64,000 nt of DNA from Telmatospirillum sp. GTDB lineage: Bacteria > Pseudomonadota > Alphaproteobacteria > Rhodospirillales > Magnetospirillaceae. The notes under the pieces were generated by a model that had not been told where the DNA came from, did no database searches, and worked only from the letters and a program-made list of their open reading frames with translations. This document shows, in pieces, positions 24,439 through 46,900 of this stretch; the first letter of the stretch is position 1; each line of letters opens with the position of its first letter. The stretch spans positions 78,390-142,389 of the forward strand of contig WASQ01000036.1 of assembly GCA_009712185.1 (NCBI GenBank), read 5' to 3'. The position numbers and the translations under genes are program-made.

Positions 24439-24469
24439 AGTTGTTATACTAACGGTTCTGTCTGTTCAG

Positions 24470-24505
24470 TCAAATTCAAAATGCAAATTTCAAATTCACA
24501 TTTGA
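24470..24505. promoter_or_regulatory. Candidate TetR operators between copy-1 tetR and the efflux operon
   Basis: tcaaattcaaaatgca (24470-24485, 12/16) and tcaaattcacatttga (24490-24505, 14/16 to TCAAATTTAAATTTGA). Confidence 0.6.
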
Positions 24506-24538
24506 CATTAAAATGAGTTGGGTCTAATCTCAACCATC

Positions 24539-27363: not shown

Positions 27364-28610
27364 CGGCTGCCGACGATACCGGTTCCCCCCGCGCGCGCAT
27401 GCGCCGGGTTGCCGCGCTGGTGCGTAAGGAAAGCCGGCAGATTCGCAGGGATCCCAGCAGCATCACGATCGGCGTGTTGTTGCCGGTCCTGCTGATTCTT
27501 CTGTTCGGTTACGGACTGTCGCTGGATGTGAAGGATGTTCCGGTCGCGGTGGTCCTGGAGGATACCTCTCCCGCCGCCCTGGAACTGGCCGCGGGTTTCC
27601 GCCTGTCGCCCTACTTCAAGTCGGTCGAAGGCGTCAGCATGGCTGACGCCCATGAGGCGATGCTGCAACGGAAAGTGGATGCGGTGATCCGGATCCGCGA
27701 GGATTTTTCCCGCAAACTGACCAACGGCGGTGCGACGGTCGAAGTCCTGCTGCACGGTATCGACGCCAACCGCGCCCGCATTATCCAGGGCTATGCCGAG
27801 GGCGCCATTCAGATGTTCAACGCCCGTTACACCGATCATGAACGGTCGGCGGCCGGCCGTCGGGGGGCGCCGCCCCCGGGGGGGGGAGGGCGGAGGGGGG
27901 GGTGCGGCGCCGCCCGTTACACCGATCATGACCGGGCGGCGGCCGGTCGTCTGGCGGCGCCGCCGCCGGTGGATGCACGTCTCAGGAAGTGGTTCAACGA
28001 GGCCGATGACAGCCATTATTTCCTCGTTCCCGGCCTGATCGTGCTGGTGATGACGCTGATCGGCGCAATTCTGACCGCTCTGGTGATGGCCAGGGAATGG
28101 GAACAGGGCACTCTCGAAGCCCTGTTCGTGTCGCCTGTCCGGGTTCCGGAGATCCTGCTCGGCAAAACAATCCCCTACTTCGGTCTGGGCCTGATCGGAC
28201 TGGTGCTCTGCATTCTGTCGTCCAGCATTCTGTTCCATGTTCCCTTCCGGGGATCGGTACTGGTGCTTTGCGGCGCCTCGATGCTCTATCTGCTGGTGTC
28301 GCTGGGGCTTGGCCTGCTGATTTCCTCCGCGGTGAAAAACCAGTTTCTGGCAAGCCAGTTCGCAGTTCTTCTGACCTTTCTGCCTGCCCTGATGCTGTCG
28401 GGGTTCCTGTTCGATCTGCGGAGCATTCCCGCCGTCGTGCGCGCCATTACCCATGTGGTTCCCGCCCGCTATTACGTCGAACTCCTTCAGACGATCTTTC
28501 TCGCCGGCGACGTCTGGCCGGTCATTCTGCCCGATATCGCAATCCTCACCGGGATCATGCTGTTGCTGCTGGCGCTTGCCCGCAAGGCGACCCGGAAAAG
28601 AGTGGGGTAA
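27360..28610 (+). CDS. pltK: ABC-2 type permease (PltK/YbhS-like) with 30-residue in-frame duplication
   Basis: ABC-2 membrane topology; EWEQGTLEALFVSPVRVPEILLGK; overlaps upstream ORF by ATGA. Confidence 0.9.
   Translation: MTAADDTGSPRARMRRVAALVRKESRQIRRDPSSITIGVLLPVLLILLFGYGLSLDVKDVPVAVVLEDTSPAALELAAGFRLSPYFKSVEGVSMADAHEAMLQRKVDAVIRIREDFSRKLTNGGATVEVLLHGIDANRARIIQGYAEGAIQMFNARYTDHERSAAGRRGAPPPGGGGRRGGCGAARYTDHDRAAAGRLAAPPPVDARLRKWFNEADDSHYFLVPGLIVLVMTLIGAILTALVMAREWEQGTLEALFVSPVRVPEILLGKTIPYFGLGLIGLVLCILSSSILFHVPFRGSVLVLCGASMLYLLVSLGLGLLISSAVKNQFLASQFAVLLTFLPALMLSGFLFDLRSIPAVVRAITHVVPARYYVELLQTIFLAGDVWPVILPDIAILTGIMLLLLALARKATRKRVG
27821..27976 (+). repeat. Direct repeat, 90-bp period, inside the permease gene
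   Basis: cgcccgttacaccgatcatga at 27821 and 27911, followed by diverged ggtcggcggccgg.../gggcggcggccgg... copies; G9 (27878-27886) and G8 (27895-27902) tracts in between. Confidence 0.9.
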
Positions 28611-28613
28611 ACC

Positions 28614-29732
28614 ATGCTTGCCTCCCTGTTACGCATTCTGGCTCTGACCCGCAAGGAGCTGCTGGCGGTTCTCAAGGAGAAACGCAGCCGGGTTAGCCTG
28701 TTCGCCCCGCCGATCGTTCAGTGTCTGTTGTTCGGCTATGCGGCGACCTATGACATTTCCTACGTGCCCTATGCCGTCATCGACCGGGATCACAGCGCCG
28801 CGTCGCGGGAATTCCTGGCGCGGCTCGATGGATCCGGCGTCTTTGAGCGCATTGCCGAGCCGGCGCGGATCGACGATCTGAAGACGGCGATCGATACCCG
28901 GAAAGTGCTGGTCGCGATCATCATCGACGGCGACTTCGAACGCCGCCTCTCGCTGGGAGAGCCGGCGGCCGTTCAGGTCATCGCCGATTCGCGCAATTCC
29001 AACACGGCCGGAACCGCGTCGCGCTACGTCAACGAAATCGTCGCCGGATTCGGGGAAACTTGGGCTGCGGGCCACGGAGCCCGGCCACGGCCGGTCCGAT
29101 CGGAGGTGCACGCCTGGTACAATCCCAATTTTGAAAGTCGCTGGCAGTTCATTCCGGGAATGATCGCCACGCTGACCATGTTGCAGACACTGTTGCTGAC
29201 ATCGATGTCGGTGGCGCGTGAGCGCGAACAGGGCACGTTCGACCAGCTTCTGGTGACGCCCTTCAGACCGCTGGAGATCATGGCCGGAAAGGCGATCCCC
29301 CCGATTCTGATCGGCATCGTTCAGGCGACCCTGGTGATGCTGGTCGGCCGCTTCTGGTTCAATGTGCCGTTCTCCGGTTCGGTCATGACGCTTTACACCG
29401 GTCTGGGTCTGTTCCTTCTGGCCTCCATCGGGATCGGCCTTCTGGTGTCGTCCCTGGTGTCCACCATGCAGCAGGCCATGTTATTCACGTTCGTCCTGCT
29501 GATGCCGTTCGTCCTGTTGTCCGGCCTGACCACCCCGATCGCCAATATGCCCTACGCGCTGCAACAACTGACGTTCGGCAATCCCCTGCGCTACGCCGTC
29601 GAAATCGTCCAGCGGATCTTTCTGGAAGGCGTCGGTCTCGACCGCCTGCTGCCGGATCTCTGGCCGCTCGCGGTCATGGGGGTGCTGTCGCTTGCGGCGG
29701 CGTCGTGGCTGTTCCGTCATCGCTTCGAATAG
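28614..29732 (+). CDS. pltN: ABC-2 type permease (PltN/YbhR-like)
   Basis: ABC-2 permease; EREQGTFDQLLVTPFRPLEIMAGKAIPP; operon position. Confidence 0.9.
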   Translation: MLASLLRILALTRKELLAVLKEKRSRVSLFAPPIVQCLLFGYAATYDISYVPYAVIDRDHSAASREFLARLDGSGVFERIAEPARIDDLKTAIDTRKVLVAIIIDGDFERRLSLGEPAAVQVIADSRNSNTAGTASRYVNEIVAGFGETWAAGHGARPRPVRSEVHAWYNPNFESRWQFIPGMIATLTMLQTLLLTSMSVAREREQGTFDQLLVTPFRPLEIMAGKAIPPILIGIVQATLVMLVGRFWFNVPFSGSVMTLYTGLGLFLLASIGIGLLVSSLVSTMQQAMLFTFVLLMPFVLLSGLTTPIANMPYALQQLTFGNPLRYAVEIVQRIFLEGVGLDRLLPDLWPLAVMGVLSLAAASWLFRHRFE

Positions 29733-29747
29733 AGGAAGGACCCGATC

Positions 29748-31256
29748 ATGTCCGGATTGCGCACGTTCCATCTCGCCGGTCTCGGCCTTGGCGTCCTTCT
29801 TGCCGGTTGCCAGGTCGGTCCGGACTTCCAGAGCCCGGACGCAAAGGCGCCTGATGTCTGGCGGGTCGGACCGCCCGCCGCCACGGATATCAAAAGCCAT
29901 GTCGTTTCCGACACTATCGATGCCTCCTGGTGGGGCGCCTTCGGCGATCCGCTGCTGAACGACCTCGAACAGCGGGCCGGGCAGTCCAATCTTTCGATCG
30001 CCGCATCGGCCCAGCGGATCGTTCAAAGCCGGGCCATCCGCGCCGTCGCCGGTGCCGATGCCGTGCCTTCGCTCGACGCCAATGCCTCTTATGAGCGGCA
30101 GCGCCTCAGCGCCAACGGCCAACTGGCTTCGATCGCCAAAGGAAGCGGCCGGTCGATCAGAAGCGGCGATATCTGGCAGTTCGGCTTCGACGCTTCGTGG
30201 GAGTTGGATCTTTGGGGCCGCGTGGCCCGGAACATAGAGGCGTCGGACGCCTCACTGGAAGCCTCGCTCCAGGATCACCGTGATGTGGTGCTGGCGGTCA
30301 GGGCCGAGATCGCCCGCAATTACGTCGACCTGCGTCGCATCCAGGCCACCCTTGCCCTTAACCGCGAACTTGCGGGGACGGCCTCCCACATCCTGAAACT
30401 GGTTGCAAACCGTTCGACCGGCGGTACCGCGACCGGGATCGATGTCGCCAACGCCCGCTCTCTTCTCGAACGGATCGATGCCGACAATCCACGGCTGGAG
30501 CAGGAGCAGGAGCAGGCAATCAATGCCATCGATCTGCTGCTGGGAGAGCAGCCGGGGACCCTGCGTCCCACGCTGATTGAGACCGGGCCTGTTCCGCCGG
30601 TGCCGTCCCAGGTGCCGATCGGGCTTCCGTCCGATCTGGCCCGCCGGCGGCCCGACATCCGGCGCGCAGAGGCGCAATTGCATGCCGCCACGGCGGAAAT
30701 CGGCGTCGCGGAAGGAGCTTTCTATCCCCGCATCACCTTGTCCGGCGATGCTTCCTTGCAGGCCATGCAGTTCCGTGATCTCGGCAACTGGTCGTCGCGC
30801 CAGTTCGGGATCGGTCCCGGCGTGTCTCTTCCGATTTTCCAGGGGGGCCGGCTCACGGGAAATCTCGAATTCAGCAAGGCTCGGGAAAGAGAGGCCGCCA
30901 TCGCCTATCACGCCGCTGTTCTCGACGCCTGGAGAGAGGTGGATGACAAATTGGCCGCCTATCACGGCGAACAGCAGCGCAACGCCCGGCTGGCCCGGAC
31001 GGTGGAGGCCGACCGGCGCGCCCTGTCCCTTGCCCATGACCGGTTCGACGGAGGGGTGGCGGATTTCGTCTCCGTCCTGGAAGCCCGTCGGACGATGCTG
31101 AGCAGCCAACAGGCCCTGGTCGAGAGCCAGGGCACCCTGGCGACCGATCTGATCGGCTTATACAAGGCCCTGGGCGGAGGATGGGACGACACCGTGGTCA
31201 CAGTCCTGGAGGAAAAACTGTCTCAGGTCACCGGCTCTTCTGGCAAGAATCCGTAA
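29748..31256 (+). CDS. pltO: RND-type outer membrane efflux lipoprotein, NodT family (PltO-like)
   Basis: Lipobox LLAGC, NARSLLERIDADNPRLEQEQEQAINAIDLLLG, RRPDIRRAEAQLHAATAEIGVAEGAFYPRITLSG. Confidence 0.9.
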   Translation: MSGLRTFHLAGLGLGVLLAGCQVGPDFQSPDAKAPDVWRVGPPAATDIKSHVVSDTIDASWWGAFGDPLLNDLEQRAGQSNLSIAASAQRIVQSRAIRAVAGADAVPSLDANASYERQRLSANGQLASIAKGSGRSIRSGDIWQFGFDASWELDLWGRVARNIEASDASLEASLQDHRDVVLAVRAEIARNYVDLRRIQATLALNRELAGTASHILKLVANRSTGGTATGIDVANARSLLERIDADNPRLEQEQEQAINAIDLLLGEQPGTLRPTLIETGPVPPVPSQVPIGLPSDLARRRPDIRRAEAQLHAATAEIGVAEGAFYPRITLSGDASLQAMQFRDLGNWSSRQFGIGPGVSLPIFQGGRLTGNLEFSKAREREAAIAYHAAVLDAWREVDDKLAAYHGEQQRNARLARTVEADRRALSLAHDRFDGGVADFVSVLEARRTMLSSQQALVESQGTLATDLIGLYKALGGGWDDTVVTVLEEKLSQVTGSSGKNP

Positions 31257-31275
31257 GCAGAGCTCCCGGGCGAAT

Positions 31276-31378
31276 GGCGGAACGTCCCCCACGTTCCGCC
31301 GGTCGGGATACCGATGCCCGGTCGAGCGCGTTGACATCAGGGGACGCACATCCCCGTCCCCGGCGTCCCCTGGTGTCA
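31276..31378. terminator. Two inverted repeats between the convergent efflux and biosynthetic operons
   Basis: ggcggaacgt-ccccc-acgttccgcc (31276-31300) and tgacatcaggggacgc...gcgtcccctggtgtca (31332-31347/31363-31378, one mismatch). Confidence 0.5.
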
Positions 31379-31476
31379 CGCTGATTCCCCTGTCGAAGGC
31401 AGGACAGGAAGGCTGGCGGCGCGTCCCGCAACCAGGTCCCGAGCCTCCTCCTCCTTGGCCCGCCGGCTGGACGCGC

Positions 31477-32313
31477 CTAACGCGCCTCCGCCTCCGTTTG
31501 CCGCGACGCCGGACGCGCGAGAACGGACCGGATGGCAGCATGAACCGGACCGGCCGCGTCGGTGAGAAAAAAGTGACCGCCGTCGAACAGCCGTTCGGTG
31601 ACCCCGGAACTGCCGTAGCGGCGCCACTGGCTCACATCCTCCGGCGGCGCCAGGGGATCGTCGCGGCCGCCCAGGCAAAGGATCGGACGGGCGATCGGAG
31701 GTCCTCCATCCCGGGGCCGCGACCGGACCAGGGCAATGTCCGCCTGGATCACCGGCAGCATCATGTCCATCAGATCGGGTTCCTCTAGAATGATGCGCGG
31801 GGTGCCGCCCATGGCTGCCAGGGTCCGGATCGCGTCCTCCCGGTCCATCTGATGGAGGGGCGGAACGCGATGCGGCACATGGGGGGGCGCCATGCCGGAA
31901 AGGACGAGATGGCGGGGAAGCGTTACCCCCGTCTCCTGGAAGCGGCGCGCCACCTCATAGGCCAGGAGGGCGCCCATGCTGTGCCCGAAGAAGACCACGG
32001 GCGCCCCCTCCATAACCGGCGCCAGGGCGCGGGCCAGGGCCGGAACCGCGTGTGCCATGTCGCGCCAGGGTGTCTCTTCCCGACGCCCTTCCCGACCGGG
32101 CAACTGGACCGCGCACAGTTCGGCGATGTCGCCCAGGGGCGACAGCCACTGGTGGACGGCGGCGGCTCCTCCGCCGGCATAGGGGAAGGCCACGAGGCGC
32201 GGCCTTCCCGGTGCCGGACGGCGATAGGGCAGCCAGGTTGCGAGCGCGGCCATGACGGATACGGCCCCGCTCGCCTCCACCTGTCCAGCGCCGATCTGGA
32301 AAGAGCCGGTCAT
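31477..32313 (-). CDS. pltG: Type II thioesterase (PltG-like)
   Basis: LVAFPYAGGGAAAVHQW, VVFFGHSMGALLAYEVARR, FDGGHFFL; start inferred at ATG 32311-32313 adjacent to pltF stop. Confidence 0.9.
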   Translation of the reverse strand: MTGSFQIGAGQVEASGAVSVMAALATWLPYRRPAPGRPRLVAFPYAGGGAAAVHQWLSPLGDIAELCAVQLPGREGRREETPWRDMAHAVPALARALAPVMEGAPVVFFGHSMGALLAYEVARRFQETGVTLPRHLVLSGMAPPHVPHRVPPLHQMDREDAIRTLAAMGGTPRIILEEPDLMDMMLPVIQADIALVRSRPRDGGPPIARPILCLGGRDDPLAPPEDVSQWRRYGSSGVTERLFDGGHFFLTDAAGPVHAAIRSVLARPASRQTEAEAR

Positions 32314-32314
32314 G

Positions 32315-33829
32315 TCATCCCTCCCCGACCAGATCGGTGGCCAGCGCCTCAAGAGCGAAGCGATCGGTTTTGCCGTTCCGGTTCAACGGCAGGCGGTCCA
32401 GAAACCGTACCGCGTCAACGATCATGGATCGCGGCAGCCGCTCCGCGCAGTGACGCTTGATGTCGAGCAATGTCGGTGGCCGGTCTCCGGCCGGGACGAG
32501 AAAGGCCCAGAGCGCGCTGTCCATCCCCGAACCGACCGCGATCACGGCCGCCTCGCGAATGCCCGGGTGGTCCAGAAGGGCTGCCTCGACTTCGCCCCGC
32601 TCAATCCGGAACCCGCGAACCTTCAGCATGTCATCGCGTCGCCCGATGTAGACATAGTCGCCTCCCGGCAGTTGCCGCACGACGTCGCCGGTCCGGTAGG
32701 GGGCGCCGCCCTGGGGATCCCGTCCGAAATAGCCCAGCATCACCGTCGGGCCCTCCACGACCAGTTCCCCCTCTTCCCCCTCGCCGCAGATCGTCCCCTC
32801 GGCGTTGACGGCGTACACGCGGTCGCCCGACACGGCGCTGCCGATCGGAACGGGGAGCAGGCGGTCCGGTTCGATCGTCCCGACCTCATAGGCGGTGCAG
32901 ACATTGGTTTCGGTCGGACCGTAAAGGTTGGCCATGCGGACCGCCGGCCACGCCTCCCGGAGGTCGCGGAGATGCTTGATGGGAAAGGGTTCGCCCGCGA
33001 ACAGAAGGACTCTGAGGTCACCCGGCCCGGCCTCCAGCAGCGCGCCCTGACGCATCATCATGATCAGGACGGACGGGACGGAATACCAGACGGTGATTTT
33101 GCGCTCGTGCAGGAAATCGACCAGCGATGACGGTGAGAATGAGGTTCCCTCGGGGACGATATGGACCGACGCGCCCGTGAGAAAGGCGCAATAAAGATCG
33201 AGAACCGACAGATCGAAATGAAACGGCGCGTGATTGGAAAGGCGGTCACGATCCGTCATGGCAAAGGCGACGGCCGCCCATTCCACAAAAGCCATGGCGT
33301 TGCGATGGCTGATCGAAACGCCTTTCGGAACGCCGGTGGAGCCGGAGGTGTAAAGAATGTAGGCAAGATCATCGAGATCGCGCTCGACAGGCGCGAGACC
33401 AGCCGGGCGATCGGTCGGGCGGCGCCAGAACTGCGGATGGTCCTCGTCGTCGAGGACGATCAGGGCCAGCCGGTCCAATCCGTTCGCGGCAAGACCGTCC
33501 GCGCGTTGGGCGGTCGTGACGATGGCGGTTGCCCGCGAATCTGTGGCGATCTTGGCGAGGCGGCTGTGCGGACTCATCGGGTCGACCGGGACGTAAACCG
33601 CGCCGATCCTCAATGCCGCCTGCATGGCCGCGACAACCACGGTCGACTTTTCCGCCCACAACAGGATCCGGTCGCCGATCCCGACCCCGTCGGCGACCAG
33701 CAGGGCCGCCAGCAGATCGGCGTCCGCGTCAAGGTCCGCATAGGTCCGTCGACCGTCGGGGCCTTCCACCGCCACGGCGGACGGGCGGGTCCGTGCCTGC
33801 TCCGCCACCAGATGATGCAGCGCCTTCAT
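32315..33829 (-). CDS. pltF: Stand-alone adenylation enzyme, L-prolyl-PCP ligase-like (PltF-like)
   Basis: A-domain cores LAYILYTSGSTGVPKGVSISH, NLYGPTETNVCTAYE, YRTGDVVR, GRRDDMLKVRGFRIE, NRNGKTDR; neighbours pltE/pltL. Confidence 0.88.
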   Translation of the reverse strand: MKALHHLVAEQARTRPSAVAVEGPDGRRTYADLDADADLLAALLVADGVGIGDRILLWAEKSTVVVAAMQAALRIGAVYVPVDPMSPHSRLAKIATDSRATAIVTTAQRADGLAANGLDRLALIVLDDEDHPQFWRRPTDRPAGLAPVERDLDDLAYILYTSGSTGVPKGVSISHRNAMAFVEWAAVAFAMTDRDRLSNHAPFHFDLSVLDLYCAFLTGASVHIVPEGTSFSPSSLVDFLHERKITVWYSVPSVLIMMMRQGALLEAGPGDLRVLLFAGEPFPIKHLRDLREAWPAVRMANLYGPTETNVCTAYEVGTIEPDRLLPVPIGSAVSGDRVYAVNAEGTICGEGEEGELVVEGPTVMLGYFGRDPQGGAPYRTGDVVRQLPGGDYVYIGRRDDMLKVRGFRIERGEVEAALLDHPGIREAAVIAVGSGMDSALWAFLVPAGDRPPTLLDIKRHCAERLPRSMIVDAVRFLDRLPLNRNGKTDRFALEALATDLVGEG

Positions 33830-34965
33830 AGCCCCAACTCCCTGGCGACGATTTCACGCTGCATTTCCGACGTACCGGAGAAAATCACCGACCCCAGGGA
33901 ATCCCGCAGCATCAGCTCGATCCCAGACTCCTCGAGGCAACCCCAGCCGCCGAAGATCCGGACAGCGTCGATGCTGGATTGCACGGCACCCTCGCTGACC
34001 GCCAGTTTCGAAAGTGCGATGTCGATCTGACCGTCGTCGCCCCGATCCATCCCCCAGCAGGCGCGGTAGAGCAGGAGCCGCGCCGATTCGAGTCGCAGTT
34101 TCATTTCGGTGATCCTGTGAGAGACCGCCTGGTAGCTGCCGATCGGCTTACCGAACTGGCGGCGATCGCGGGCATGGCTCACCACACGGTCGATCTGGCG
34201 TTCCATCATGCCGAGAAAGGCGGCGAACAGGCAGCTCCGTTCCCAGCCCATCGAGCGCTGGAAGATCTGACGCCCCTGCCCCTCTTCGCCCATCCGGTTG
34301 GCTTCGGGAACCAGGCAGCCCTCGAACCGGATGCCGCTGGCCGGGCAACTGGCAAGGCCCGTCTTGATCAAAGGCTCCGTGGTCGTCAGCCCGCCGTTCG
34401 CGGTTTCGACCACAAAGCCCGTTACACCCAGCGACCCGAAGGACGGCTCCGTTGTCGCGTAGGTCACGATCACGTCGGCCACAGGCGCGTTGCCGGCGAA
34501 GCTTTTGAAGCCGTCGATGCGGTAATATCCGTCGCCGGTCGGCACCGCGACGGTCTTCAACGCCGCGGAATCGGATCCCGCGTCGGGCTCCGTAATGGCG
34601 TTCGATCCGATCCATTGGCCGGAGGCCAACCTGGGCAGAACCCTCCGTTTTACCTCGCCGCCGGCGAATTCCACGATCGGCATGACGCAGGCGAAAAGAT
34701 GGGCGCAGGTGGCGAACACCAGTCCCATGTCCGGGCAATGGCGGCCGAAAGCCTGCATCGCGACCGCGCTGGAGAGGGCGCCGTAGCCGCCGCCGCCATA
34801 GACGGTCGGCACCGAAAGGCCCAGGAGCCCCGCCTTGCCGCAGCTTTCCCATTGCTCGCGGGTAAAGTAGCGCGTGCCCTTCGGTCGTTCGGGAAGACCG
34901 GTCTCGCAGAAACGGGCGATCGACTTGGAGAGCTGTTTCTGCTCGTCATCCAGTTCGAAGTTCAT
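33826..34965 (-). CDS. pltE: Acyl-CoA dehydrogenase-like flavoprotein, prolyl-S-PCP dehydrogenase-like (PltE-like)
   Basis: MNFELDDEQKQLSKSIARFCETGLPE...; acyl-CoA dehydrogenase motifs (AITEPDAGSDSAALKT, RIFGGWGCLEES); operon context. Confidence 0.88.
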   Translation of the reverse strand: MNFELDDEQKQLSKSIARFCETGLPERPKGTRYFTREQWESCGKAGLLGLSVPTVYGGGGYGALSSAVAMQAFGRHCPDMGLVFATCAHLFACVMPIVEFAGGEVKRRVLPRLASGQWIGSNAITEPDAGSDSAALKTVAVPTGDGYYRIDGFKSFAGNAPVADVIVTYATTEPSFGSLGVTGFVVETANGGLTTTEPLIKTGLASCPASGIRFEGCLVPEANRMGEEGQGRQIFQRSMGWERSCLFAAFLGMMERQIDRVVSHARDRRQFGKPIGSYQAVSHRITEMKLRLESARLLLYRACWGMDRGDDGQIDIALSKLAVSEGAVQSSIDAVRIFGGWGCLEESGIELMLRDSLGSVIFSGTSEMQREIVARELGL

Positions 34966-34966
34966 A

Positions 34967-36652
34967 TCAGAGACCTTTCCGGGACAGGGGTTGCTCATCA
35001 AGCGCCTGAGCCACCGGGCCGGACGCCAGTTTGCGGAACGAGCGATAGAAAATCAGCCGTCCAACCCCATCGGGGGCCTGCGTGAGGCTCCACCACAGCG
35101 CCTTGAGCTTGCGGGCCGGCGTCAAGTGGTAGATCCGCGCTTTCGGATCGGCAAAATCGAAGATGGGCGGAAGCGATGTGACGGCGGCCAGCGCATCGAA
35201 CACCCTTTGCGCCGCCGTGACCGGAGGCAGACGTCCGTCATCGACCGCGGACAGGCTGTCCAGAGTTTGGTCCAGCAACCGTTTGTAGCCTTCGTAGACC
35301 GGCATCCAGAATCCGTCCTCAACCGGACGATCCAGGCTTTCGAGGACCGTCTGATCGCGGCTTTTGACAAAGGCGTCGTGGACCTTGCGGGTCGTCACCG
35401 TGCAGGCGATCGACTGCATCAGCCAGACCCGGGCGAAAGCGTTCCACAGGTCGGGGTGACGCATTGCGATCTGGGCGCCGGCCGCGATCCGGTCGGCCAA
35501 CAACTGGACGCCCTCCTGGATTCGTCCGAAGTCGCGCAGTTCCTTCTTCTGATAGTCGCCGGTCCGGGCCGCGGCGATCAGGCGGTGGCCCAGGGCATGG
35601 ACCAGTTCGACAGTGTTGGAGAGCTTGCGCGAGAACAGCAGATCGTTGCCGCCGGCCGATTCGTCGAACAGCAGATAACGTCCGCCCAGCGCGTCCTTGC
35701 AGGAATATTGCGCCGGCGCCTCCACATCCCACTCCCGAACCCGGCGTGCACCGCCAAGGTGCGGGTTTAATGATGGGAAGCGGTCGATCAATCCGGCGAG
35801 GAGGTCGTCGCCGGACCGGGCCGCTTCGGCGGGATCGGTGACGGAGATCACCACGGAGCACAGCGGATTGGTCGAATTTTTGTGATTGTCGAAGGGAATG
35901 ATGCCGATCCAGCCGCCATCGAAAACGTGATGCAGAGTCCCGTCGTGCCACCGGCCCGGCAGCCGATGATGGACGCAATGGTCATAAGGCGTGACATCGA
36001 CCATGTGGGTGGTGAAGGTGACCGACCGGGCGCGACGGTTTCCCGGCTCCAGCCTTAGTCCGAATTTGGCGGCCAGAGGAGAGGAACGACCGCAATCGTC
36101 GACGACATAGTCGGCCGACAGGGCCTCGCCATAGCCGTCCTGGATGGTGGCGCCGTTCCGTCCGACCTCCATGGCGCCGTTGCGCGACCATGGCCGGTAG
36201 ACCGCTCCGCGACGGATCGCGGCATGGAGCAGATAAGCGTCGATGTCCTGGCGGAACAGATGGTTTTCGCCATGTTCCGACGGCACGTTGAACTGCAGGA
36301 TCCGCGTCGGGTCCTGGGTTTTCCCTTTTTCATGATAGAGAAATCCCAGGTTCCGCTTTACACCCGATGAGGGCATGACATGGCGCGCGATCAGACCGGA
36401 TCGCGCGATATTTCTGATTTCCGGCATGTCATAGCGATCGGCGATCAGTTCCAGGATCATCGACGTATAGGGAATCGTGGCTTCGCCCGACTGGTATCGG
36501 GGATGGGGATCGTCGTCGAGAATGACGACCCTGACACCGTGACGGGCCAGTATTCCGGCCAGCAGAATGCCTCCCAGCCTGGTTCCCAGGATGGCGATAT
36601 CGAAATGATCCGGTTTCGCAGCCGGACCCGGCGATTTTTCCGGTTCGCTCAT
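34967..36652 (-). CDS. PltD/PrnC-family flavoprotein with degenerate halogenase motifs (second PltD-like copy, here pltD')
   Basis: Homologous to 36786..38426 (GEATIPYTSMILELIADRYDMPEIRNI; GTLHHVFDGGWIGIIPFDNHKNS). FAD motif reads LGTRLGG and the WxWxIP position reads WIGIIP. Confidence 0.82.
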   Translation of the reverse strand: MSEPEKSPGPAAKPDHFDIAILGTRLGGILLAGILARHGVRVVILDDDPHPRYQSGEATIPYTSMILELIADRYDMPEIRNIARSGLIARHVMPSSGVKRNLGFLYHEKGKTQDPTRILQFNVPSEHGENHLFRQDIDAYLLHAAIRRGAVYRPWSRNGAMEVGRNGATIQDGYGEALSADYVVDDCGRSSPLAAKFGLRLEPGNRRARSVTFTTHMVDVTPYDHCVHHRLPGRWHDGTLHHVFDGGWIGIIPFDNHKNSTNPLCSVVISVTDPAEAARSGDDLLAGLIDRFPSLNPHLGGARRVREWDVEAPAQYSCKDALGGRYLLFDESAGGNDLLFSRKLSNTVELVHALGHRLIAAARTGDYQKKELRDFGRIQEGVQLLADRIAAGAQIAMRHPDLWNAFARVWLMQSIACTVTTRKVHDAFVKSRDQTVLESLDRPVEDGFWMPVYEGYKRLLDQTLDSLSAVDDGRLPPVTAAQRVFDALAAVTSLPPIFDFADPKARIYHLTPARKLKALWWSLTQAPDGVGRLIFYRSFRKLASGPVAQALDEQPLSRKGL

Positions 36653-36785
36653 GGTCTTGTTCTCCCGGTTGAGTGGCCCTGCGGTATCCACCACGAAGGA
36701 CTATTAATATTTATCAATGACTTATATTATTTTCTTTTCGAGGCATCTGAGCCCTGCGCAAAGGCCCCGAAGGGTCCCGGAGCGG

Positions 36786-38426
36786 TCATCCGACGCCCAG
36801 CAGGCGTCGGGCAGCGAACCCGCGCAGCGCCTTGCGGACCATGGCTCCCACTTCGACATCGGCCCTGGTTTTGGACCAGATCATGGTCTTCAACATCCTG
36901 GGCGGTGTCGGGTGGAAGAACCGGACCGAGGGATCGGTCAGTCCGAAAGCGGGAGGCACGATGGTGCTTTGCGACAGGCGCTGGAAGGTAAGCCGGGCCG
37001 CCTCCTCCACATCGAGGGACCCCTTTTCCACCAGTTCGCAATCGGCGACCAGACTGTCCAGCAGATCGTCATAAGCGCTGCTGGTGGGAATGGCGGCTCC
37101 ATAATGGGGGCCCAGCTCCATGGCGTCGAAAACCTTGACATCGCCGGTTTTCTGGTAAGCCTTCAGGACATTCTGCGCCTGGAAGGCCCCCAGGAAGGCG
37201 CCCAGCGCCCAGACGCGGACCGCCGCGTTCCAGAGCCGGTAGTCGCGGAAGCCGACGAAGGCCGCATAAACCACCCGGTCGTGCCGTCGAACCATGGACA
37301 GAGCCACCTTCTCCACCGGCAGGAAGCGTTCGCGGCTGAAATCGTTGTCCTTGCAGGCGGAGATCAGCCGTCCGGCCAGCAGATTGATGGTGTTCATGGT
37401 GATCGCGAGGCCCTGGGAATAAAGGGCGTCGACGAAGCCGGCGGCATGGGCGGTCAGGCAGATGCGGTCAAGCACCATCGCCGACGACGAATATTGGATC
37501 CTGCCCGACGATACCCACGGGCGGACGGTGCGCGCGTTCGCAAACTGACGCTTCATGTCGGGATAGCGATCGACAATGGCCCGGAATTCCCGTTCCGGAT
37601 TTCCCTCCCATTTCGGGTAGCGCCGGGGATCGAGGAGGAAGCCCACGCTGACGAGACTGTTGCGGGCCAACGGATGATTATCGAAAGGAATAACCCACAT
37701 CCAGCCGCCATCGAACAGATGGTGCAATGTTCCCTGGCTCCACCGGCGGGGAGCGCCGGCCCGGCGCGAGGGGTCGACGCAGTCCTCGAACGGTGGCACG
37801 CCGGTCATGTGGGTGAACAGGCCGCGCGACTGATGCTTGAGAGAGCACGGTTCCTCGCGCAGGCCGTATTTTTTCGCGACGGGCGACGCATATCCGCTGG
37901 CGTCGGCGAGATAGCGACCCCGGAATGCCCCTTTCGTGGTTTCCAGCGTGACCCCGGCGTCGTCCTGGTGGACGTCGGTGACGCGGACCCCCTGGAAGCT
38001 GTCGCACCCATAGCGGATCGCCACGGTCAGCATGTAGGCGTCGACGTCCTGACGGAACAGGTGATGTTCGACATCAAGAAGTTTCGGAATGACCACCTGA
38101 TTGGTTTCCTCGGGCCTGACCGGCTCGCCCGGACGGTGATAAACGAATCCGAAATTTGTCTTGATGCCGTTGCTGGCCGATACCTTGCGATCCATCAGGG
38201 AAAAGCTGGTGAGATTGCGCAGTTCGGGCAGGTCATAGCGCCCGGCCAGCAGCCGCAACAGCGCACTGGTATAGGGAATGGTCGATTCTCCGATCGCCAT
38301 ACGCGGATGGGTTCCGCCGTCGATCAAAGCGACGCTGACACCGTGGCGGGCCAGGATAGCCCCCAGAATGGTACCCGCGATGCCGGATCCCAGGATCAGA
38401 ACGTCATAGGTCCGCCGTTGTTCCAT
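36786..38426 (-). CDS. pltD: PltD/PrnC-family FAD-dependent halogenase-like protein
   Basis: GSGIAGTILGAILARHGVSV, GESTIPYTSALLRLLAGRYDLPELRNL, GGWMWVIPFDNH (intact WxWxIP). Confidence 0.85.
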   Translation of the reverse strand: MEQRRTYDVLILGSGIAGTILGAILARHGVSVALIDGGTHPRMAIGESTIPYTSALLRLLAGRYDLPELRNLTSFSLMDRKVSASNGIKTNFGFVYHRPGEPVRPEETNQVVIPKLLDVEHHLFRQDVDAYMLTVAIRYGCDSFQGVRVTDVHQDDAGVTLETTKGAFRGRYLADASGYASPVAKKYGLREEPCSLKHQSRGLFTHMTGVPPFEDCVDPSRRAGAPRRWSQGTLHHLFDGGWMWVIPFDNHPLARNSLVSVGFLLDPRRYPKWEGNPEREFRAIVDRYPDMKRQFANARTVRPWVSSGRIQYSSSAMVLDRICLTAHAAGFVDALYSQGLAITMNTINLLAGRLISACKDNDFSRERFLPVEKVALSMVRRHDRVVYAAFVGFRDYRLWNAAVRVWALGAFLGAFQAQNVLKAYQKTGDVKVFDAMELGPHYGAAIPTSSAYDDLLDSLVADCELVEKGSLDVEEAARLTFQRLSQSTIVPPAFGLTDPSVRFFHPTPPRMLKTMIWSKTRADVEVGAMVRKALRGFAARRLLGVG

Positions 38427-38511
38427 GGTGTTCTCCTCGAAAGCCGCGCCGGTCGGGGCGCCGTTGGGTTATGACGGGAGGGACCGGACACCGGCCCCGT
38501 CCCGCAGGGGG

Positions 38512-41500
38512 TCACTGCGCCGCGACCAGATCGGCCGCTCCATGCTGTTCGGTGATTGCCGCCACCAGGAAATCCGGCCATTGCAGACCGGGGCAGTTGA
38601 TGAAGTCGCGCGCCTTGATTTCGAGACGGAGGTCTTTGCGGCAGCGCGAGACCATCTCCATGACCAGCAGCGAATTGAGGCCGAAGTCCATCAGGCTGCC
38701 GCCGTCCTCCAGCTTGGCCTTGATCTTTCCAACGTCCACGCCAAGGAGATTGGCGTACTGTTCCCATACATAGCCGTCGATGATCCGGAGAAGGTCGTCC
38801 GGACCTGCGCCCTCCAGGCGGGAGAGGATATCCGAACCGGTGTAGGGCTCGGGCCCGACCTTGGACCTGACCGCGATCGCCTCCAGAAGCGGGCGCGGGC
38901 CGCGGGCTTCCAGGAGCGGCTTGAACCGGTGCCAGTCGGCCCCGGCGACGACCATCTGGGTTTCTTTCCCGGCCAGGAGGCGCATCAGGGCTCCGATGTT
39001 GCGTTCCGACGCCATCCGCTTCAGGCCGACCGACTTCAGGAATTTCAGAACCTCTTCGTCGAACAGGTGGCTGCCCCCCGCCCACAAGCCCCAGTTGACC
39101 ACGAGCGCCGGCAGTCCCAGGGCGCGGCGATGGTGAGCCAGACTGTCCAGGAACTGGTTGGCCGCGGCATAGCTCGCCACATGCTGGGATCCCCAGACGC
39201 AGGCGATCGTGGAAAACAGGGCGAAGATGTCGAGATCGAGGTCGCGGGTCCGTTCGTGCAACAGCCAGGCGCCCTCCACCTTGGGGCGCATGACCTCGGC
39301 GAAGGTGGCCGCGTCGGCAACGATCAGATCCTGCGGCTTCGACAACCCCGCCGCATGGAAGATGCCTTTCAGTCCACCGGAAGATGCGGACAGAGTGCCG
39401 ATCACACCGTCCATATCCGTGGCGGAGCAGACGTCGGCTGCGAAATAGCGGATTTCCGCCCCCGACTGCCTCAGTTTATGCACCGCCTGGACCTTGCTGT
39501 CGGTCTCCGATCCCGGTCCCTCGGCGAGCGCGCTGCGACCGGTGATGGCAATGTGAGACGCCCCCGCATCGATCAGCCAGCGCGCGATGGACAGGCCAAT
39601 TCCGCCCAATCCACCGGTAATCAGATACCAGCCGGAGGCCGACGGGCGGATCGGGCGGGACGGAAGGCGCGCCGGATCCCACCGATTGAGCCGCTGCACA
39701 TAACGCCTGCCATCCCGGAAGGCGACGAGGTCCTCGATGTCCGGACGCAGGACCTCGTCAACCAGCGCAAGATGACTGTCGGGATCACCCGGATCGAGAT
39801 CGACGAGGCCGCCCCAGATCTCCGCATGTTCCAGTGCGATCGCCTTGCCCAGTCCCCAAAGCGGCGCCGCCGTCACCTGGAGCGGCCGCGCGGCCGGGCC
39901 GGCGGGTTGCGCCCCCTCGGTCGCGATCCAGAGACGGACGGACGGTGGTGTCGGCAGGGACGCCAGCGCCTGGACAATGGCGACCGCCGGTTCGGTTCCC
40001 GACGACCGTCCCTCGGCCAGGGCGGCCATGGTCGTTGCGCCCGCTGCCGCCAGATCGAGACCCGGAAGAAAGAACAGGTGCGTCGGCTGATCTCCGTCGG
40101 GGGCATAGGCTTCCGCCAGCGCCGCCGCGATATCGGCCGGATCGGCCGACGGAGCGCCATCATCCGTGTCAACGCCGGGCCAGATCCGGGCTTTCCAGCC
40201 CCTTGCGGTCAATGTATCGGCAAGGGCGCGGGCGATACCTCGCCGGTCGGGGTAGATCAGTGCCCGGCCGGGACGGTCCGCCGGATCGGCTTTTCGGGGC
40301 CGTTCCTCCCAGTCGAGGCTGTAAAAGATGTCGGGCAGCGGCAGTTCGTCGGCCAGACGCAGAACAGATGGCGGTTCCGTGAGCGCTATTCCCTCCAGCG
40401 CCAGAGCCGGTTGCCCCTGACGATCGTAAAGCGTGGCGCCACAAGCGGGAATCTCTCCCCACCGCCATGGCTGCCCCCGGACAACAACCTGACGGATCGC
40501 CGGCATCGGGGACCGGCCGGCCAGGGCGGCAACGCGCGAGAGCGTCACCGTCTGGGGCGGTGCCAGCGCGGCGGACAGCGCGATATCGAGTGCCGCTGCG
40601 GCCGGTACCGGATCCGCGAACTCGACCAGGGTGTCGGTTCCGTTGCGCCGGATGGCACCGATGCCGAGGCCCGTCAGTGTGTCTGGCACCTCCTGGGATT
40701 CCTGATCGCTGACGGTGGGCAACGGGTCCGCCACGACGGTCAGACCGGGGACCAGTCGGGCGTCCAGAACCGCCTGCCATCCCTCTCCCGTCCGCGCGCC
40801 GGCCCGGCTGAGGGCATGGCTGCGCAATCGCCAGCCGCCCTCATCGAGGGTGGTCAGAACGGTGTGCAGGGAAAGCTCGTCGTCGCGGTTGAGGGCAAGG
40901 ACCGGCGCCACGCTGTCGATCGTGATCCCTATTCCGGTTTCGGAAATTGCCGCGGCGGCGGCCGTTGGCAGCAGACCCAGTGCGTAGCCCGGCAGGACGA
41001 CCAGCCCGTCCTCCTCGCGGCCGCCCAGCGCCAGAAGATCGTCGGCGTCGAGGGTGGTCGTGAAAACCGGATCGGGAGCCTCGACCCGCCGGCCGGGAAG
41101 CACGGGACCGGCCTCCCCTCCGTCATGATCCGAGAACCCGGCGCCCGACCGTTTGGGCAGATCGAACCAGAAGCGGTCATGCTGGAAGGCGTAGGTTGGA
41201 ATGGCGATTCTCTGGGCGCCATCGCCGTCGTGGATGCGGGCCCAATCGAGATCGATCCCCGCCACGAACAGTTTCGCGGCGGCCATGCGGATATCCCGGC
41301 ATCCCGGATCCTCCCTGGTCTGCGAGGCGATGACCGTTTTACCGGCGATCGCTTCATGGCGGCCGACCATGGGCAACAGGACCGAATCGGCCCCCACCTC
41401 CAGGAAGACCTCGATCCCCGATTCGATCAGGGTGGCGACGCCATCGTTGAACCGTACCGCCTGGCGGGTATGGCGGCACCAGTAGTCGGGATCGCCCAGG

Positions 41501-43923
41501 CTGTCGGCCGTGTGAAAGCGCCCGGTGACGCTGGCCACGATGGGCAGGCGGGGCTGGCGGAATGTCAGAGAGGCCACCACCTCGCGGAATGCTCCCAGCA
41601 TCGGCTCGGTCGTCCGGGTATGGAAAGCGTGCGAGATCGCCAGATACTTGACCCTGACGCCACGGCTGGAGAACGCCTCGGAGACCGCCGTCACTTCTCC
41701 GTCGTCACCGGCGATCACGATGTCCTCGGGGCTGTTGACCGCCGCAATTTCGACACTGGAGGCGTCCAGATCCCGGATCTGCTCCAGAACCTCCGTCTCC
41801 GAGGCGTTGATGGCGAACATCTTGCCGCCGGCGGGAAGCAGCGCCTGTGCCAGCCGCCCTCTTGCCTCGACCAGACGGATGGCGTCGGCAAGGTCCAGCG
41901 CGTCGGCGAAGCATGCCGCCGCCACTTCGCCGAAACTGTGGCCCAACAAGGCCGCCGGACGGACGTCCCAATGGCGCCACAGCTCCGAGAGGCCGTATTC
42001 GACCGCGAAAATCGCGGGCTGGGTGTAGTGGGTCTGGGCGAGCTGCGCCTCGGCCTCGCGTCCCTCCGCAAAGATCAGATCGCGAAGCGACCGTCCGATC
42101 ATCGGATCAAGAATATCGGCGCATCTGTCGAGCGCGGCACGGAAGACGGGCTCCGTGGCGTAAAGCTCGCGCCCCATACCGGCATATTGCGATCCCTGGC
42201 CGGGAAACAGCAGTGCCAGAGGAGGCGTCACGCCAGGCTTCACAATCCCCTCGACCGCATTGGCGGGAAGTTTCCGGGCGGCGTAGGAGGCCAGTTGCGC
42301 CCGCAAGCTGTCCGGACGATCGGTCACCGCGGCGAACCGATGCTCCAAACGGGCCCGCCCGGTATTCGCGGTCAGGCAGATGTCAGCCAGCGGAATATCC
42401 GGGTTTTCAGCGATGAAGCGTTCGTAGCGCCCCGCGATCTGGCGGCGGGGGGCCTCTCCCCGGCCCGAAATGGTGATGACCTGCCAGGGTCTGGCAACCG
42501 TCGCGGCGGGCCGCGGTCGTGGCGGGGCCTCGCCGACCACCGCATGGGCGTTGGTGCCGGTGACACCGAAGGAATTGATCCCGGCGAACCGGGGCTTTTC
42601 CCCGGCCGGCCAGGGTGTCACCGCGGTCGGCACGTCGATGGTGAAACTGTCCCACTCGATCTTGGGATTGCGCCGCGTCAGATTGATGTGCGGGGGGACT
42701 TCGCCATGCTGGAGTGACAGAACCAGCTTGGTAAGGCCGGCGGCCCCGGCAACCGGTTCCAGATGACCGATATTGGTTTTGACCGATCCGACCAGCAGGG
42801 GCCGATCCCGGCCGGAACCGGTGCCGACCACGGTGTCCAGGGCCTTGAGCTCGATCGGATCGCCAAGATCTGTGCCGGTACCGTGAGCCTCGACATAGTC
42901 GATCTGGTCCGGGGACACCCGACCATCGGCCAGCGCCCGGGTGATGACATCCTGCTGGGCGTAGATGTTGGGGACCGTGATCCCGCTGCTGGGACCGTCG
43001 TGATTGATGGCGGTCCCCTGAATGACCGCCAGGATCGGATCCTGATCGCGGATCGCGTCCGCCAGACGCTTCAGGGTCAGGACCACGCACCCCTCCCCCC
43101 GTCCGTAGCCATTGGCGCCGGCATCGAAGGCCTTGCAGCGGCCATCCGGTGAGACCGCCCGCAGTTTGCTGACGAGAATGAAACCGTAGGGGGATAAAAT
43201 CAGACTGACGCCTCCGGCGAGGGCGAGATCGCTTTCGCCCTCACGCAGGCTCCGGCACGCCTGGTGAATGGCCACCAGCGACGAGGAGCAGGAGGTGTCG
43301 ATCAGGGCTGCCGGACCGTGGGTCCCCAGGGTGTAGGCGATGCGACCCGGAATAAAACTGATTTCGCCGAAGAACTGATAGGCATCGACGGTCGCCGGAT
43401 CGCAAAATTGCTGGCGCAGTCGCACATAGTCATTCGTGCTGGCGCCCATGAAGACTCCAAGACGGCTTCCTTTCAGGCTGTCGGGGGCGATGGCCGCGTT
43501 TTCCAGCGCCTCCCACGCCGTCTCCAGCGCGATGCGTTGTTGCGGATCCATGCCGGCGGCTTCCCGCGGGGAAAGGCCGAACAGTCCGGGATCGAACAGA
43601 TCCGGATCGTCGATGAACCCGCCCCGCATGACATAGGCCTTGCCGGGCTTGTCGGGGTCCGGATCGAAATAATCGGTACCGTAAAGGCGGTCGCGCGGCA
43701 TGTCGGTGATCGCATCCCCACCGGTGCGCAAAAGTCTCCAGAACCGCTTCGGGTTGTCGGCGCCGCCGGGAAGCCGGCATCCGATTCCCAGCACGGCAAT
43801 CGGCTGGTGTTTGTCGCCTGTCTCGATTCTGGCCTTCAGCTGGCGGATGGTGTCGACCGCCCGGGCAAGCCCGCGCCGCAATTCCTCCGTCGCCGAGGCT
43901 GTTTCCTGGGCATTTCCGTTCAT
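38512..43923 (-). CDS. pltC: Type I PKS, KS-AT-(DH-like)-KR-ACP (PltC-like)
   Basis: 1803 aa; KS DTSCSSS/HGTGT/TNIGH; AT GHSFG with HAFH; KR GGLGGIG and SYAAANQFLDSLA; ACP FGLNSLLV. Confidence 0.92.
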   Translation of the reverse strand: MNGNAQETASATEELRRGLARAVDTIRQLKARIETGDKHQPIAVLGIGCRLPGGADNPKRFWRLLRTGGDAITDMPRDRLYGTDYFDPDPDKPGKAYVMRGGFIDDPDLFDPGLFGLSPREAAGMDPQQRIALETAWEALENAAIAPDSLKGSRLGVFMGASTNDYVRLRQQFCDPATVDAYQFFGEISFIPGRIAYTLGTHGPAALIDTSCSSSLVAIHQACRSLREGESDLALAGGVSLILSPYGFILVSKLRAVSPDGRCKAFDAGANGYGRGEGCVVLTLKRLADAIRDQDPILAVIQGTAINHDGPSSGITVPNIYAQQDVITRALADGRVSPDQIDYVEAHGTGTDLGDPIELKALDTVVGTGSGRDRPLLVGSVKTNIGHLEPVAGAAGLTKLVLSLQHGEVPPHINLTRRNPKIEWDSFTIDVPTAVTPWPAGEKPRFAGINSFGVTGTNAHAVVGEAPPRPRPAATVARPWQVITISGRGEAPRRQIAGRYERFIAENPDIPLADICLTANTGRARLEHRFAAVTDRPDSLRAQLASYAARKLPANAVEGIVKPGVTPPLALLFPGQGSQYAGMGRELYATEPVFRAALDRCADILDPMIGRSLRDLIFAEGREAEAQLAQTHYTQPAIFAVEYGLSELWRHWDVRPAALLGHSFGEVAAACFADALDLADAIRLVEARGRLAQALLPAGGKMFAINASETEVLEQIRDLDASSVEIAAVNSPEDIVIAGDDGEVTAVSEAFSSRGVRVKYLAISHAFHTRTTEPMLGAFREVVASLTFRQPRLPIVASVTGRFHTADSLGDPDYWCRHTRQAVRFNDGVATLIESGIEVFLEVGADSVLLPMVGRHEAIAGKTVIASQTREDPGCRDIRMAAAKLFVAGIDLDWARIHDGDGAQRIAIPTYAFQHDRFWFDLPKRSGAGFSDHDGGEAGPVLPGRRVEAPDPVFTTTLDADDLLALGGREEDGLVVLPGYALGLLPTAAAAAISETGIGITIDSVAPVLALNRDDELSLHTVLTTLDEGGWRLRSHALSRAGARTGEGWQAVLDARLVPGLTVVADPLPTVSDQESQEVPDTLTGLGIGAIRRNGTDTLVEFADPVPAAAALDIALSAALAPPQTVTLSRVAALAGRSPMPAIRQVVVRGQPWRWGEIPACGATLYDRQGQPALALEGIALTEPPSVLRLADELPLPDIFYSLDWEERPRKADPADRPGRALIYPDRRGIARALADTLTARGWKARIWPGVDTDDGAPSADPADIAAALAEAYAPDGDQPTHLFFLPGLDLAAAGATTMAALAEGRSSGTEPAVAIVQALASLPTPPSVRLWIATEGAQPAGPAARPLQVTAAPLWGLGKAIALEHAEIWGGLVDLDPGDPDSHLALVDEVLRPDIEDLVAFRDGRRYVQRLNRWDPARLPSRPIRPSASGWYLITGGLGGIGLSIARWLIDAGASHIAITGRSALAEGPGSETDSKVQAVHKLRQSGAEIRYFAADVCSATDMDGVIGTLSASSGGLKGIFHAAGLSKPQDLIVADAATFAEVMRPKVEGAWLLHERTRDLDLDIFALFSTIACVWGSQHVASYAAANQFLDSLAHHRRALGLPALVVNWGLWAGGSHLFDEEVLKFLKSVGLKRMASERNIGALMRLLAGKETQMVVAGADWHRFKPLLEARGPRPLLEAIAVRSKVGPEPYTGSDILSRLEGAGPDDLLRIIDGYVWEQYANLLGVDVGKIKAKLEDGGSLMDFGLNSLLVMEMVSRCRKDLRLEIKARDFINCPGLQWPDFLVAAITEQHGAADLVAAQ

Positions 43924-43953
43924 TGCGTCCTCCTGTTCTTCGGCGCGCCAGGC

Positions 43954-46900
43954 TCAGACCCCGACCCCGTCCAGGTCCTGGAGTTCCCGGCTCAATGCAT
44001 CCAATAATTGATCGTCCGTCATGTCGCCGGCCGTTCCGGCGTTCCGGTCCTGGTCTTGAACCGGCCGTTCCACGATCCGGCTTCCCGCGGTGGGGCCGGC
44101 ATCCGTCGTGAAGGTGAAGCCGTCCTCGATCAACGCCGTCACCACGGCCTCGATCGATGTCCGTTCGAAGGCGAAGGTGCTGGGCAGCGACAATCCACTC
44201 AGCCGTTCCAACCGGGATCGCAGGTCCACGGCCATCATTGAGGTCATCCCCATGTCGAAGAATCCCCGCCGAACGTCGAGTTCGTCCGGCGCGTCGTAAC
44301 CGAAGACGTCGGCGATCACCTTGCGGACATGGTTCATCAGGCGGTGGCGGCGCAGCTCAGGGCTTAAGGCCTCGAGTTCCCGGCGCAGGCTTCCCTCGCC
44401 GGTGCCACCGTCCGGCCGTTGCCCCACCTGATCGAGAACCGGCCAGGGAAGGACGGCCTGATAGAGCGGCCTTAAGACGGCCCAGTCGACGGCTGCGATC
44501 CCGGCGCGTGCGGGCCCGTTCCAGACCAGCCGGTCGAGGCAGGCCAGGGCGGTCTCATCCTTCAGCGGGTCGAGGCCGCTCTGGCGCATCAGGCGCAGGT
44601 CGTCAGGCCGGTTGCGAACAGCGCGGTCCCACTGTGTCCAGGCGATGGACACCGAAGGACGGCCGGATCCACGGCGGGTCTCGGCCAGGGCATCGGCGAA
44701 GGCATCCACGGCGGCGGCACGCCCCATGCCCATACCGCCCCACAGCGCGGCGGCACTGCCGAAGGTTGCGAAAAGGCGGATGGGATCGGATCGCGTCAGG
44801 CGGTGCAAAGCCACGACAACGCCCGCACGGCGCTTCAGCGTCTCCGCCATGGCCGTTTCGGACATCGACGCCAGAGGTGTCATGGTCCAGTCATGCCCAC
44901 CGTGAATGACGCCGACGATGGGCCCTCCCGCCCTGAGACGGGCGATTTCACCCGCCAGCGCCTCCCGATCATCAGGACTGATCTCAAGTCTTTCGATCAG
45001 AGGACCGCCCGCATCCGCGCTGGCAACAGACGGATCCCCCCCGAGCAGCGCGACCCGTCCGACGCCGGTCCCGGCCAGCCATTGCAGGATCGGCGGGGCA
45101 AGGTCCGGCGCCGCATCATGAAGGATGACACACCCGTCCTTCGGCAGGGTGTCGTGGCGCGGCGGCGGGGCAACCTGTTCCACCACCTGGGCCGCCCGAA
45201 GGGTGCCGTCGCGTAACAAAAGATGATCATGTGGCAGGTCGGCAGCCAGCAGATCGGCCAGAAGCCGAAGATTGCGGCCATCGCTCAGATCGATGTCGGC
45301 GACGCCACGCCACCAGGCCGGATGTTCAAGACCGAAGCAGCGGACAAGCCCCCAGATCGATGCCGCCGCCGGCCGGCTGGCCGGACCATCCGCCTCAACG
45401 GCCTGTTCGGTCAGAAACAGGATCGGCTTCCCGCTGTCGCGGATGGCCGACGCCGCGCGGGACAGAGCCAGAATATCGGCGATCCGCGGCAACAGTCCGC
45501 CGGTCGGATCATCGGGCAGCCCGTCGGGCAGGCCGAGGCCGGCGGCGTGCAGGACGCCCTGGCATCTGGGATCCATGGCCTGTTCGCGCAGGAGACGTTG
45601 CAGACGCCGATCGGCTGCCGGGTCCCAATGGCCGTCCGGCGTTCCCTGCGACCGTTCTTCCGCCACGGTCCGGATCATGACGCCCCGGGTCGCCGCGGCC
45701 GCCACCAGCGGTCGTGCGAGGTCCTCGCGGTCACCGATCAACAGCCAGAATCCCGCTGGTGTCGCCGGTGGGACCGGCTGGTCCAGGTCCCACCATGCCA
45801 GGGTATAAGTCCGCGCCTCCGGTCCCGCGGCGTCCGTGCCCGTGCCGGTAATCGTGCCGGTAATCGTCTCCGTAGTGGTGTCCGCGCATGAGGGACTGCC
45901 GGCATGCGCGGACAGACCGGACAGGACCAACAGGATCGTCCCGTCGCCGGCCTCGACGGCCAGAGTGCCGTCCCGCCGGTGGCGAACCGCGAGGGCGCCA
46001 TCGGGGACGCCATTCCCGACGGTCAGGCCGGAGCAGACGCCCCCATTCCGGTTGAAATCGGCGGCCAGCAGATCCACCGAGGCTTCGATGAGAGCGATCC
46101 GCCGTTCCCGCGCCGTCAGGCCGTCGGGAATGGCGATGGTGCCGTCATGGTGGCCGGGATCCCCTGGATGGTCGTGATCCCTCTGCTCGCCGAAGTCCCG
46201 GGGCGTCACGGCGTCCACCTGAGCGATCAGGCAGGGCTGCCATCCGCTGTCCGGAAGGCTGCGGTCAATACGGATCGCGACCGGCCGATCGTCCTTCAGC
46301 TCCAGACGCAGATGCAGCGCGAGCCGGTCGGTCAGGCCGATATCCGGTCCGGGAGAAATCCACAGCTCCAGCATCTGCCGCTGCAATGTTCCGCAAGCTT
46401 TTGCCATCGCGGCAAGGGCCAGTTCGGCCAGCGCCGCCGGTCGCAACCGACGGCCGGTTCCCGAGAGGCTGAACAACTGGGAATCATCGCCGCAGGGTCC
46501 GGTCCAGCCGATACCGTCGCCATCCGTCAGCGGCGGCTCCCGCAGGAGAGGGCATGACCGGCCGGTGTCCCGCGATTCTCCGGTCCCGGCGACCAATACC
46601 GGGGTTGCCGGGGCGATCCAATAGGATTGCGGTTCCCACGGATTGGTGGGGAGATCCGCAACCGGGCCCGGCAGGGGCCAAAGCTCGCGCCAGTCCACCT
46701 CCATTCCGGCGAGAAAGCGGCCCACCAGGGCGGCCGTCCGCCCCGTCCTGCCGTTTTCGGGTATCGGGCGACCGTCCAGCCAATTCTCCAGCGCTGCCGC
46801 CAGGTCATCCGGACGGGATCCCCAGACAGCCAGCCGTTGAGGGAGCTGGGCGCGCCCTCTTGCCGCGGTCCGGCAGACCGCGCCGGCATCCGGCTGCGTC

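Follow-up and report, generated by a model that had tools for sequence, protein, structure and literature searches.

The 64,000-nucleotide stretch of Telmatospirillum sp. DNA analysed here (contig WASQ01000036.1; hereafter the window) carries two genes for homologous flavoproteins side by side within a pyoluteorin-type gene cluster. What are these two genes, and what would each contribute to the product? An earlier note on this DNA read them as duplicated PltD-family halogenase genes, one fresh and active, the other eroded in its FAD and halogenase motifs.

A complete plt-type cluster with one additional gene

Annotation of the window yielded the following features, with percentages giving identity to the Pseudomonas protegens counterparts.

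20626..57505: island with the whole cluster, about 37 kb; about 0.2 kb in its place in the congener G001 (L138)
23686..24438, minus strand: TetR-family regulator, PltZ-like (36% to the TetR at the same place)
24518..31256, plus strand: export genes, namely membrane fusion protein, ABC transporter parts and outer membrane factor (33-57%)
31477..32352, minus strand: PltG thioesterase (46%; Pfam)
32315..33829, minus strand: PltF prolyl-AMP ligase (58%; Pfam)
33826..35001, minus strand: PltE prolyl-carrier-protein dehydrogenase (67%; Pfam)
34967..36652, minus strand: PltD orthologue, 561 aa (P0001), predicted non-redox aromatizing dehydratase (54% to PltD of strain FD6; tree, motifs)
36786..38426, minus strand: predicted extra flavin-dependent phenolic halogenase of functional type, 546 aa (P0002; halogenase motifs, CtcP fold, actinobacterial halogenase clade)
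38512..43923, minus strand: PltC-like type I PKS, 1803 aa, KS-AT-KR-ACP (52%; Pfam; KR NADP motif intact)
43954..51474, minus strand: PltB-like type I PKS, 2506 aa, KS-AT-ACP-KS-KR-ACP (43%; Pfam; Met222 of the first KS kept, KR without NADP motif)
51529..52878, minus strand: PltA pyrrolyl-carrier-protein halogenase, 449 aa (77%)
53045..53296, minus strand: PltL peptidyl carrier protein, 83 aa (54%; Pfam PP-binding)
53660..54361, plus strand: second TetR-family regulator, divergent from pltL

With pltL, A, B, C, D, E, F and G all found, gene content and gene order give a complete pltLABC-hal-DEFG cluster, which has pltLABC, DEFG, a TetR regulator and export genes in common with the plt cluster of P. 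protegens. The two differ in that P. protegens FD6 has no gene between pltC and pltD, where the extra halogenase gene lies here, and in that the present host is an alphaproteobacterium. The NADP motif is kept in the KR of PltC and not in that of PltB in P. protegens as well, a pattern that points to a single reduction, and Met222 of the PltB KS has been reported to act as a gatekeeper for dichloropyrroles. Because of this KR pattern and the retained Met222, we expect a pyoluteorin-type resorcinol, which follows established pyoluteorin pathway logic.

Genome-wide, the halogenase homologues number three (PltD, the extra gene and PltA), and none of them is PltM. Among the genes of the cluster, none was recognised as a LysR-type PltR. 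The TetR regulators at its two ends (53660-54361 and 23686-24438) each share 35-37% identity with one and the same TetR of Pseudomonas. In P. protegens FD6, a halogenase-like gene at G456:C1:2513-4080 matched only in pieces, in different frames and with internal stops in some of them, which suggests either a broken prnC-type gene or an assembly error close to the start of the record.

Because the flanks are collinear in the congener, with the short segment replacing 20626..57505, we place the cluster on an island. tRNA genes were not found anywhere in the window; the genome has the alphaproteobacterial tmRNA family. In codon usage, 34967..36652 and 36786..38426 agree with pltB and pltC (r 0.93 and 0.95), so the extra halogenase gene does not look like a later arrival. 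A complete pltLABC-hal-DEFG cluster on an island in an alphaproteobacterium is new here. Elsewhere in the window, the protein encoded by 59328..61709 gave about 70 matches in the genome (G000), mostly to its C-terminal half; this is an unusually large family, and its members look like signalling proteins.

The two genes belong to separate clades

Both genes are open, complete reading frames on the minus strand, adjacent as described in the earlier note, and their products are homologous, with 36% identity over 526 aligned positions (E=4e-110). The motif status that the note had assigned to each copy was also borne out. The upstream protein (36786..38426) keeps GSGIAG (in ILGSGIAG) and WMWVIP (W242-M-W-V-I-P247), whereas the downstream protein (34967..36652) has LGTRLGG (in ILGTRLGG) for GxGxxG, with R25 replacing the second Gly, and WIGIIP (W248-I-G-I-I-P253) for WxWxIP, with G250 replacing Trp. 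The GESTIPYT/GEATIPYT block and the lysine region, GIK(89)TNFGFVYH upstream and GVK(99)RNLGFLYH downstream, are kept in both. The note had missed a further halogenase motif, the third, which is lost downstream only: the tunnel motif FxxPxxSxG, as defined in PMC12871659. It reads FVDALYSQG in the upstream protein, where Ala takes the place of Pro, as it does in many functional-type relatives, and GNDLLFSRK in the downstream protein, with F, P and G lost. The Pfam family Trp_halogenase is still detected in the upstream protein but no longer in the downstream one.

In a midpoint-rooted maximum-likelihood tree of 44 representatives, the downstream protein is sister to P. protegens PltD (support 100/100) and lies in a 12-member clade of motif-poor proteins only (100/100). 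The upstream protein falls in a separate 14-member clade of functional-type halogenases that includes actinobacterial enzymes (99/97). Because the tree is midpoint-rooted and PltM sits on a long branch, its deepest order is unsure, which leaves the separation of the two window proteins unaffected. Forcing these two together cost 213 log-likelihood units (AU p=8.08e-5).

That pltD was duplicated recently and that one copy is now decaying into a scaffold would fit two adjacent and homologous genes, but this view conflicts with the 36% identity, with the two deeply separated clades and with the rejection of a joint tree at p=8.08e-5. Moreover, the motif-poor copy shares gained conserved residues with PltD of Pseudomonas and actinobacteria, and we regard such a duplication as next to impossible. 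The copies are diverged members of separate families, an outcome that the earlier note had itself named as speaking against duplication, and its wording has to be turned around: the motif-poor copy is the PltD, and the intact copy is not.

Structures were predicted for both window proteins from inputs that excluded one row taken from an annotated plasmid record. Both models agree well with CtcP and PltM, so the overall fold cannot separate the copies.

The motif-poor gene as a PltD orthologue

In a profile-guided scan of 84,980 genomes, the product of 34967..36652 was 53-54% identical to three Pseudomonas PltD proteins and at most 41% identical to all other relatives among the 80 best; its identity to PltM is 26-29%. 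The gene lies within a pyrrole-starter type I PKS cluster and is directly followed by pltE, with the D-E-F-G order of P. protegens. PltD of P. protegens has lost the same motifs and has the same place before pltE, although the residues that replace the lost motifs differ (ILGTRLGG here, LAGNSISV there). Judged from sequence, tree position and gene order, the motif-poor gene is a true PltD orthologue. A scan of the genome contigs with a single protein gave no matches; these came from the alignment-based scan. Neither 60 other related genomes nor about 400 genomes across the phylum yielded a PltD, the weak matches there being generic flavoproteins.

Because PltD is described, in the account of Yi et al. 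2022 (ACS Chem Biol) given in PMC12670696, as a protein without the conserved FDH motifs that acts as an aromatizing dehydratase, the "eroded" copy, the central oddity of this locus, is on that account already explained. By analogy with the Pseudomonas protein, to which the published activity belongs, 34967..36652 is predicted to dehydrate dihydrophloroglucinol without redox activity.

This assignment also bears on a reading of the two genes as a pair like Mpy10/Mpy11 of marinopyrrole, that is, as halogenase-derived flavoproteins coupling two pyrrole-polyketide units into a dimer. According to PMC12942903, Mpy10/Mpy11 are FADH2-dependent halogenases responsible for the homocoupling, and their cluster is related to plt, but the downstream gene here is assigned to PltD, for which the account above reports a different function. 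We consider coupling of this kind very unlikely.

A conserved signature in the PltD clade

Most members of the PltD clade no longer have the second Gly of GxGxxG, and none has the second Trp of WxWxI. All 27 PltD-like proteins compared lack both WxWxI and the tunnel motif. The stretch QFNxPxEHxE, which reads QFNVPSEHGE in the window protein, is present in 27/27 of them and in 0/103 functional-type halogenases, many of these sequences being closely related, so that the 130 observations are not independent. Within the 12-member clade, N122, E126, L411, Y508 and L516 are each found in 12/12 members, and position 343, Gly in halogenases, is acidic or basic (D in 10, K in 2). QFNxPxEHxE meets the alignment column of PltM L111, a residue that lines the substrate cavity of PltM.

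The column of the catalytic Lys87 of PltM, which is needed for catalysis, is kept in both window proteins (K99 in PltD, K89 in the extra halogenase). The PltD-like proteins of three actinobacterial loci (L032, L062 and L076) have Gln or His at this position, so the lysine is not needed across the whole PltD clade.

The QFNxPxEHxE signature is new here. From the residues that it conserves, the PltD clade is best described as re-tooled under constraint, not decaying, and we infer that E126 and H127 of PltD are the acid-base pair of the dehydratase. The abstract by Yi et al. from 2022 reportedly mentions a mutational analysis of the PltD active site, so part of this reading may already be known.

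The suggestion of an active halogenase beside a scaffold or non-halogenating paralogue therefore stands in part, with one functional-type halogenase and one putative non-halogenating protein. A scaffold role is unlikely, because the motif-poor protein groups with PltD of P. protegens, an aromatizing dehydratase in the account cited above, and because the PltD clade keeps invariant residues of its own.

The additional gene as a functional-type halogenase

The AlphaFold2 model of the 36786..38426 product (pLDDT 90.4) matches CtcP with a TM of 0.93-0.95. CtcP (PDB 7xgb, 7v0b) is its best solved relative, at 44-45% identity in the structure alignment, and identity to halogenases of actinobacteria reaches 53%. 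CtcP, the tetracycline 7-halogenase, works in a type II polyketide pathway, unlike the setting here. On motifs, modelled fold and clade, the gene is assigned as a functional-type phenolic halogenase and not as PltD, and halogenation of a phenol is predicted for it. Some halogenases of its clade come from clusters that have no close relative of pltA. Because the protein sits on a long branch of its own and its exact sister is not fixed, the tree does not indicate its substrate.

Within the cluster, none of the genes was identified as a flavin reductase, and a promoter and terminator scan of 36500..38700, which spans the halogenase gene and both flanking gaps, gave nothing above chance. An open frame of 585 codons runs antisense over the entire gene (36717-38474, plus strand) and probably results from the high G+C content. 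A plasmid of Streptomyces sp. NBC_00490 carries a type II polyketide cluster with a protein of 1127 residues (L004, 16135-19518) in which a CtcP-like halogenase is attached to the C-terminal end of an aromatic FAD monooxygenase.

PltM (PDB 6bza) has the same fold and a different genomic setting. We rejected orthology to PltM: identity to it is 34-38%, as against 44-53% to CtcP and the actinobacterial enzymes, and the gene lies within the operon between pltC and pltD, not beside pltR. The enzyme could nevertheless stand in for PltM by chlorinating a small phenol such as phloroglucinol as a cluster-activating signal, in which case the final product would be plain pyoluteorin. PltM falls in the same broad clade, and in P. 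protegens it makes chlorinated phloroglucinol signals and is itself required for production. Against such a role, the enzyme is much closer to CtcP, its gene has biosynthetic neighbours, the local regulators recognised are of the TetR type, and the search of the genome turned up no type III PKS (PhlD type), which leaves phloroglucinol without an apparent source. We consider a signalling role unlikely.

A target other than the free resorcinol ring, either the pyrrole or a carrier-bound intermediate, would suit a cluster built on carrier-bound intermediates (PltL and the carrier domains of PltB and PltC). However, PltA, at 77% identity, is already present for the pyrrole, and the CtcP/PrnC/PltM group, of which the extra enzyme is a member, acts on free substrates. 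This alternative, too, seems improbable to us.

Halogenase-PltD pairs in other clusters

A functional-type halogenase gene directly followed by a PltD-like gene near a PltB/C-like PKS was found at no fewer than nine actinobacterial loci, that is, at least L032, L033, L045, L059, L060, L074, L075, L076 and L083. A PltA relative at 61-65% is present in each of the nine genomes and in two more pyrrole clusters, mostly visible on the same contig. Because nine paired loci come with PltA relatives, the pairing of halogenase and PltD is recurrent and probably old.

A pyrrolomycin-type cluster of Micromonospora sp. RB23, in which McsG, described as a protein of the PltD kind, lies beside the phenol halogenases McsD, E and F (PMC12670696), likewise combines functional-type halogenases, a PltD-like protein and a pyrrole-starter type I PKS. 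It differs in having several phenol halogenases and a predicted phenol, as against one halogenase and a predicted resorcinol here, and the export genes and DEFG order of the present cluster are as in Pseudomonas, unlike those of Micromonospora.

We tentatively suggest, as a possibility that we hold with less than even confidence, that the halogenase-PltD pair is an old pyrrole-polyketide module that was lost in Pseudomonas and kept here, where it would lead to a ring-halogenated pyoluteorin. The PltD clade would then have abandoned the halogenase tunnel and, next to the former substrate cavity, gained a new acid-base site (QFNxPxEHxE, E126/H127).

Discussion

The reading that we favour, with a probability of roughly two in three, is that of an imported plt-type cluster in which aromatization of the ring falls to PltD and halogenation of the resorcinol to the extra enzyme. 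The pltLABC-hal-DEFG genes and export genes would have been acquired horizontally. PltF, PltE, PltL and PltA would make the dichloropyrrolyl starter, and PltB and PltC would add three malonyl extensions with one ketoreduction to give an alicyclic dihydrophloroglucinol. PltD, a former halogenase presumably incapable of flavin chemistry, would dehydrate and aromatize this ring to the resorcinol. The FADH2-dependent extra halogenase would most likely then add one or two halogens, yielding a tri- or tetrahalogenated pyoluteorin; we infer both this substrate and this timing.

The extra halogenase suggests a product more halogenated than pyoluteorin, with a phenol ring that may bear further chlorine or bromine. 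The expectation of an extra halogen, voiced in the earlier note, is plausible.

The shared ancestry of PltD-type dehydratases and halogenases invites a common "halogenase" label in databases, and QFNxPxEHxE offers a simple rule by which PltD-type dehydratases may be separated there from real halogenases. The signature also points to residues for mutation. The pyoluteorin pathway now extends outside Pseudomonas to an alphaproteobacterium, in which the extra gene predicts a new, more halogenated analogue.
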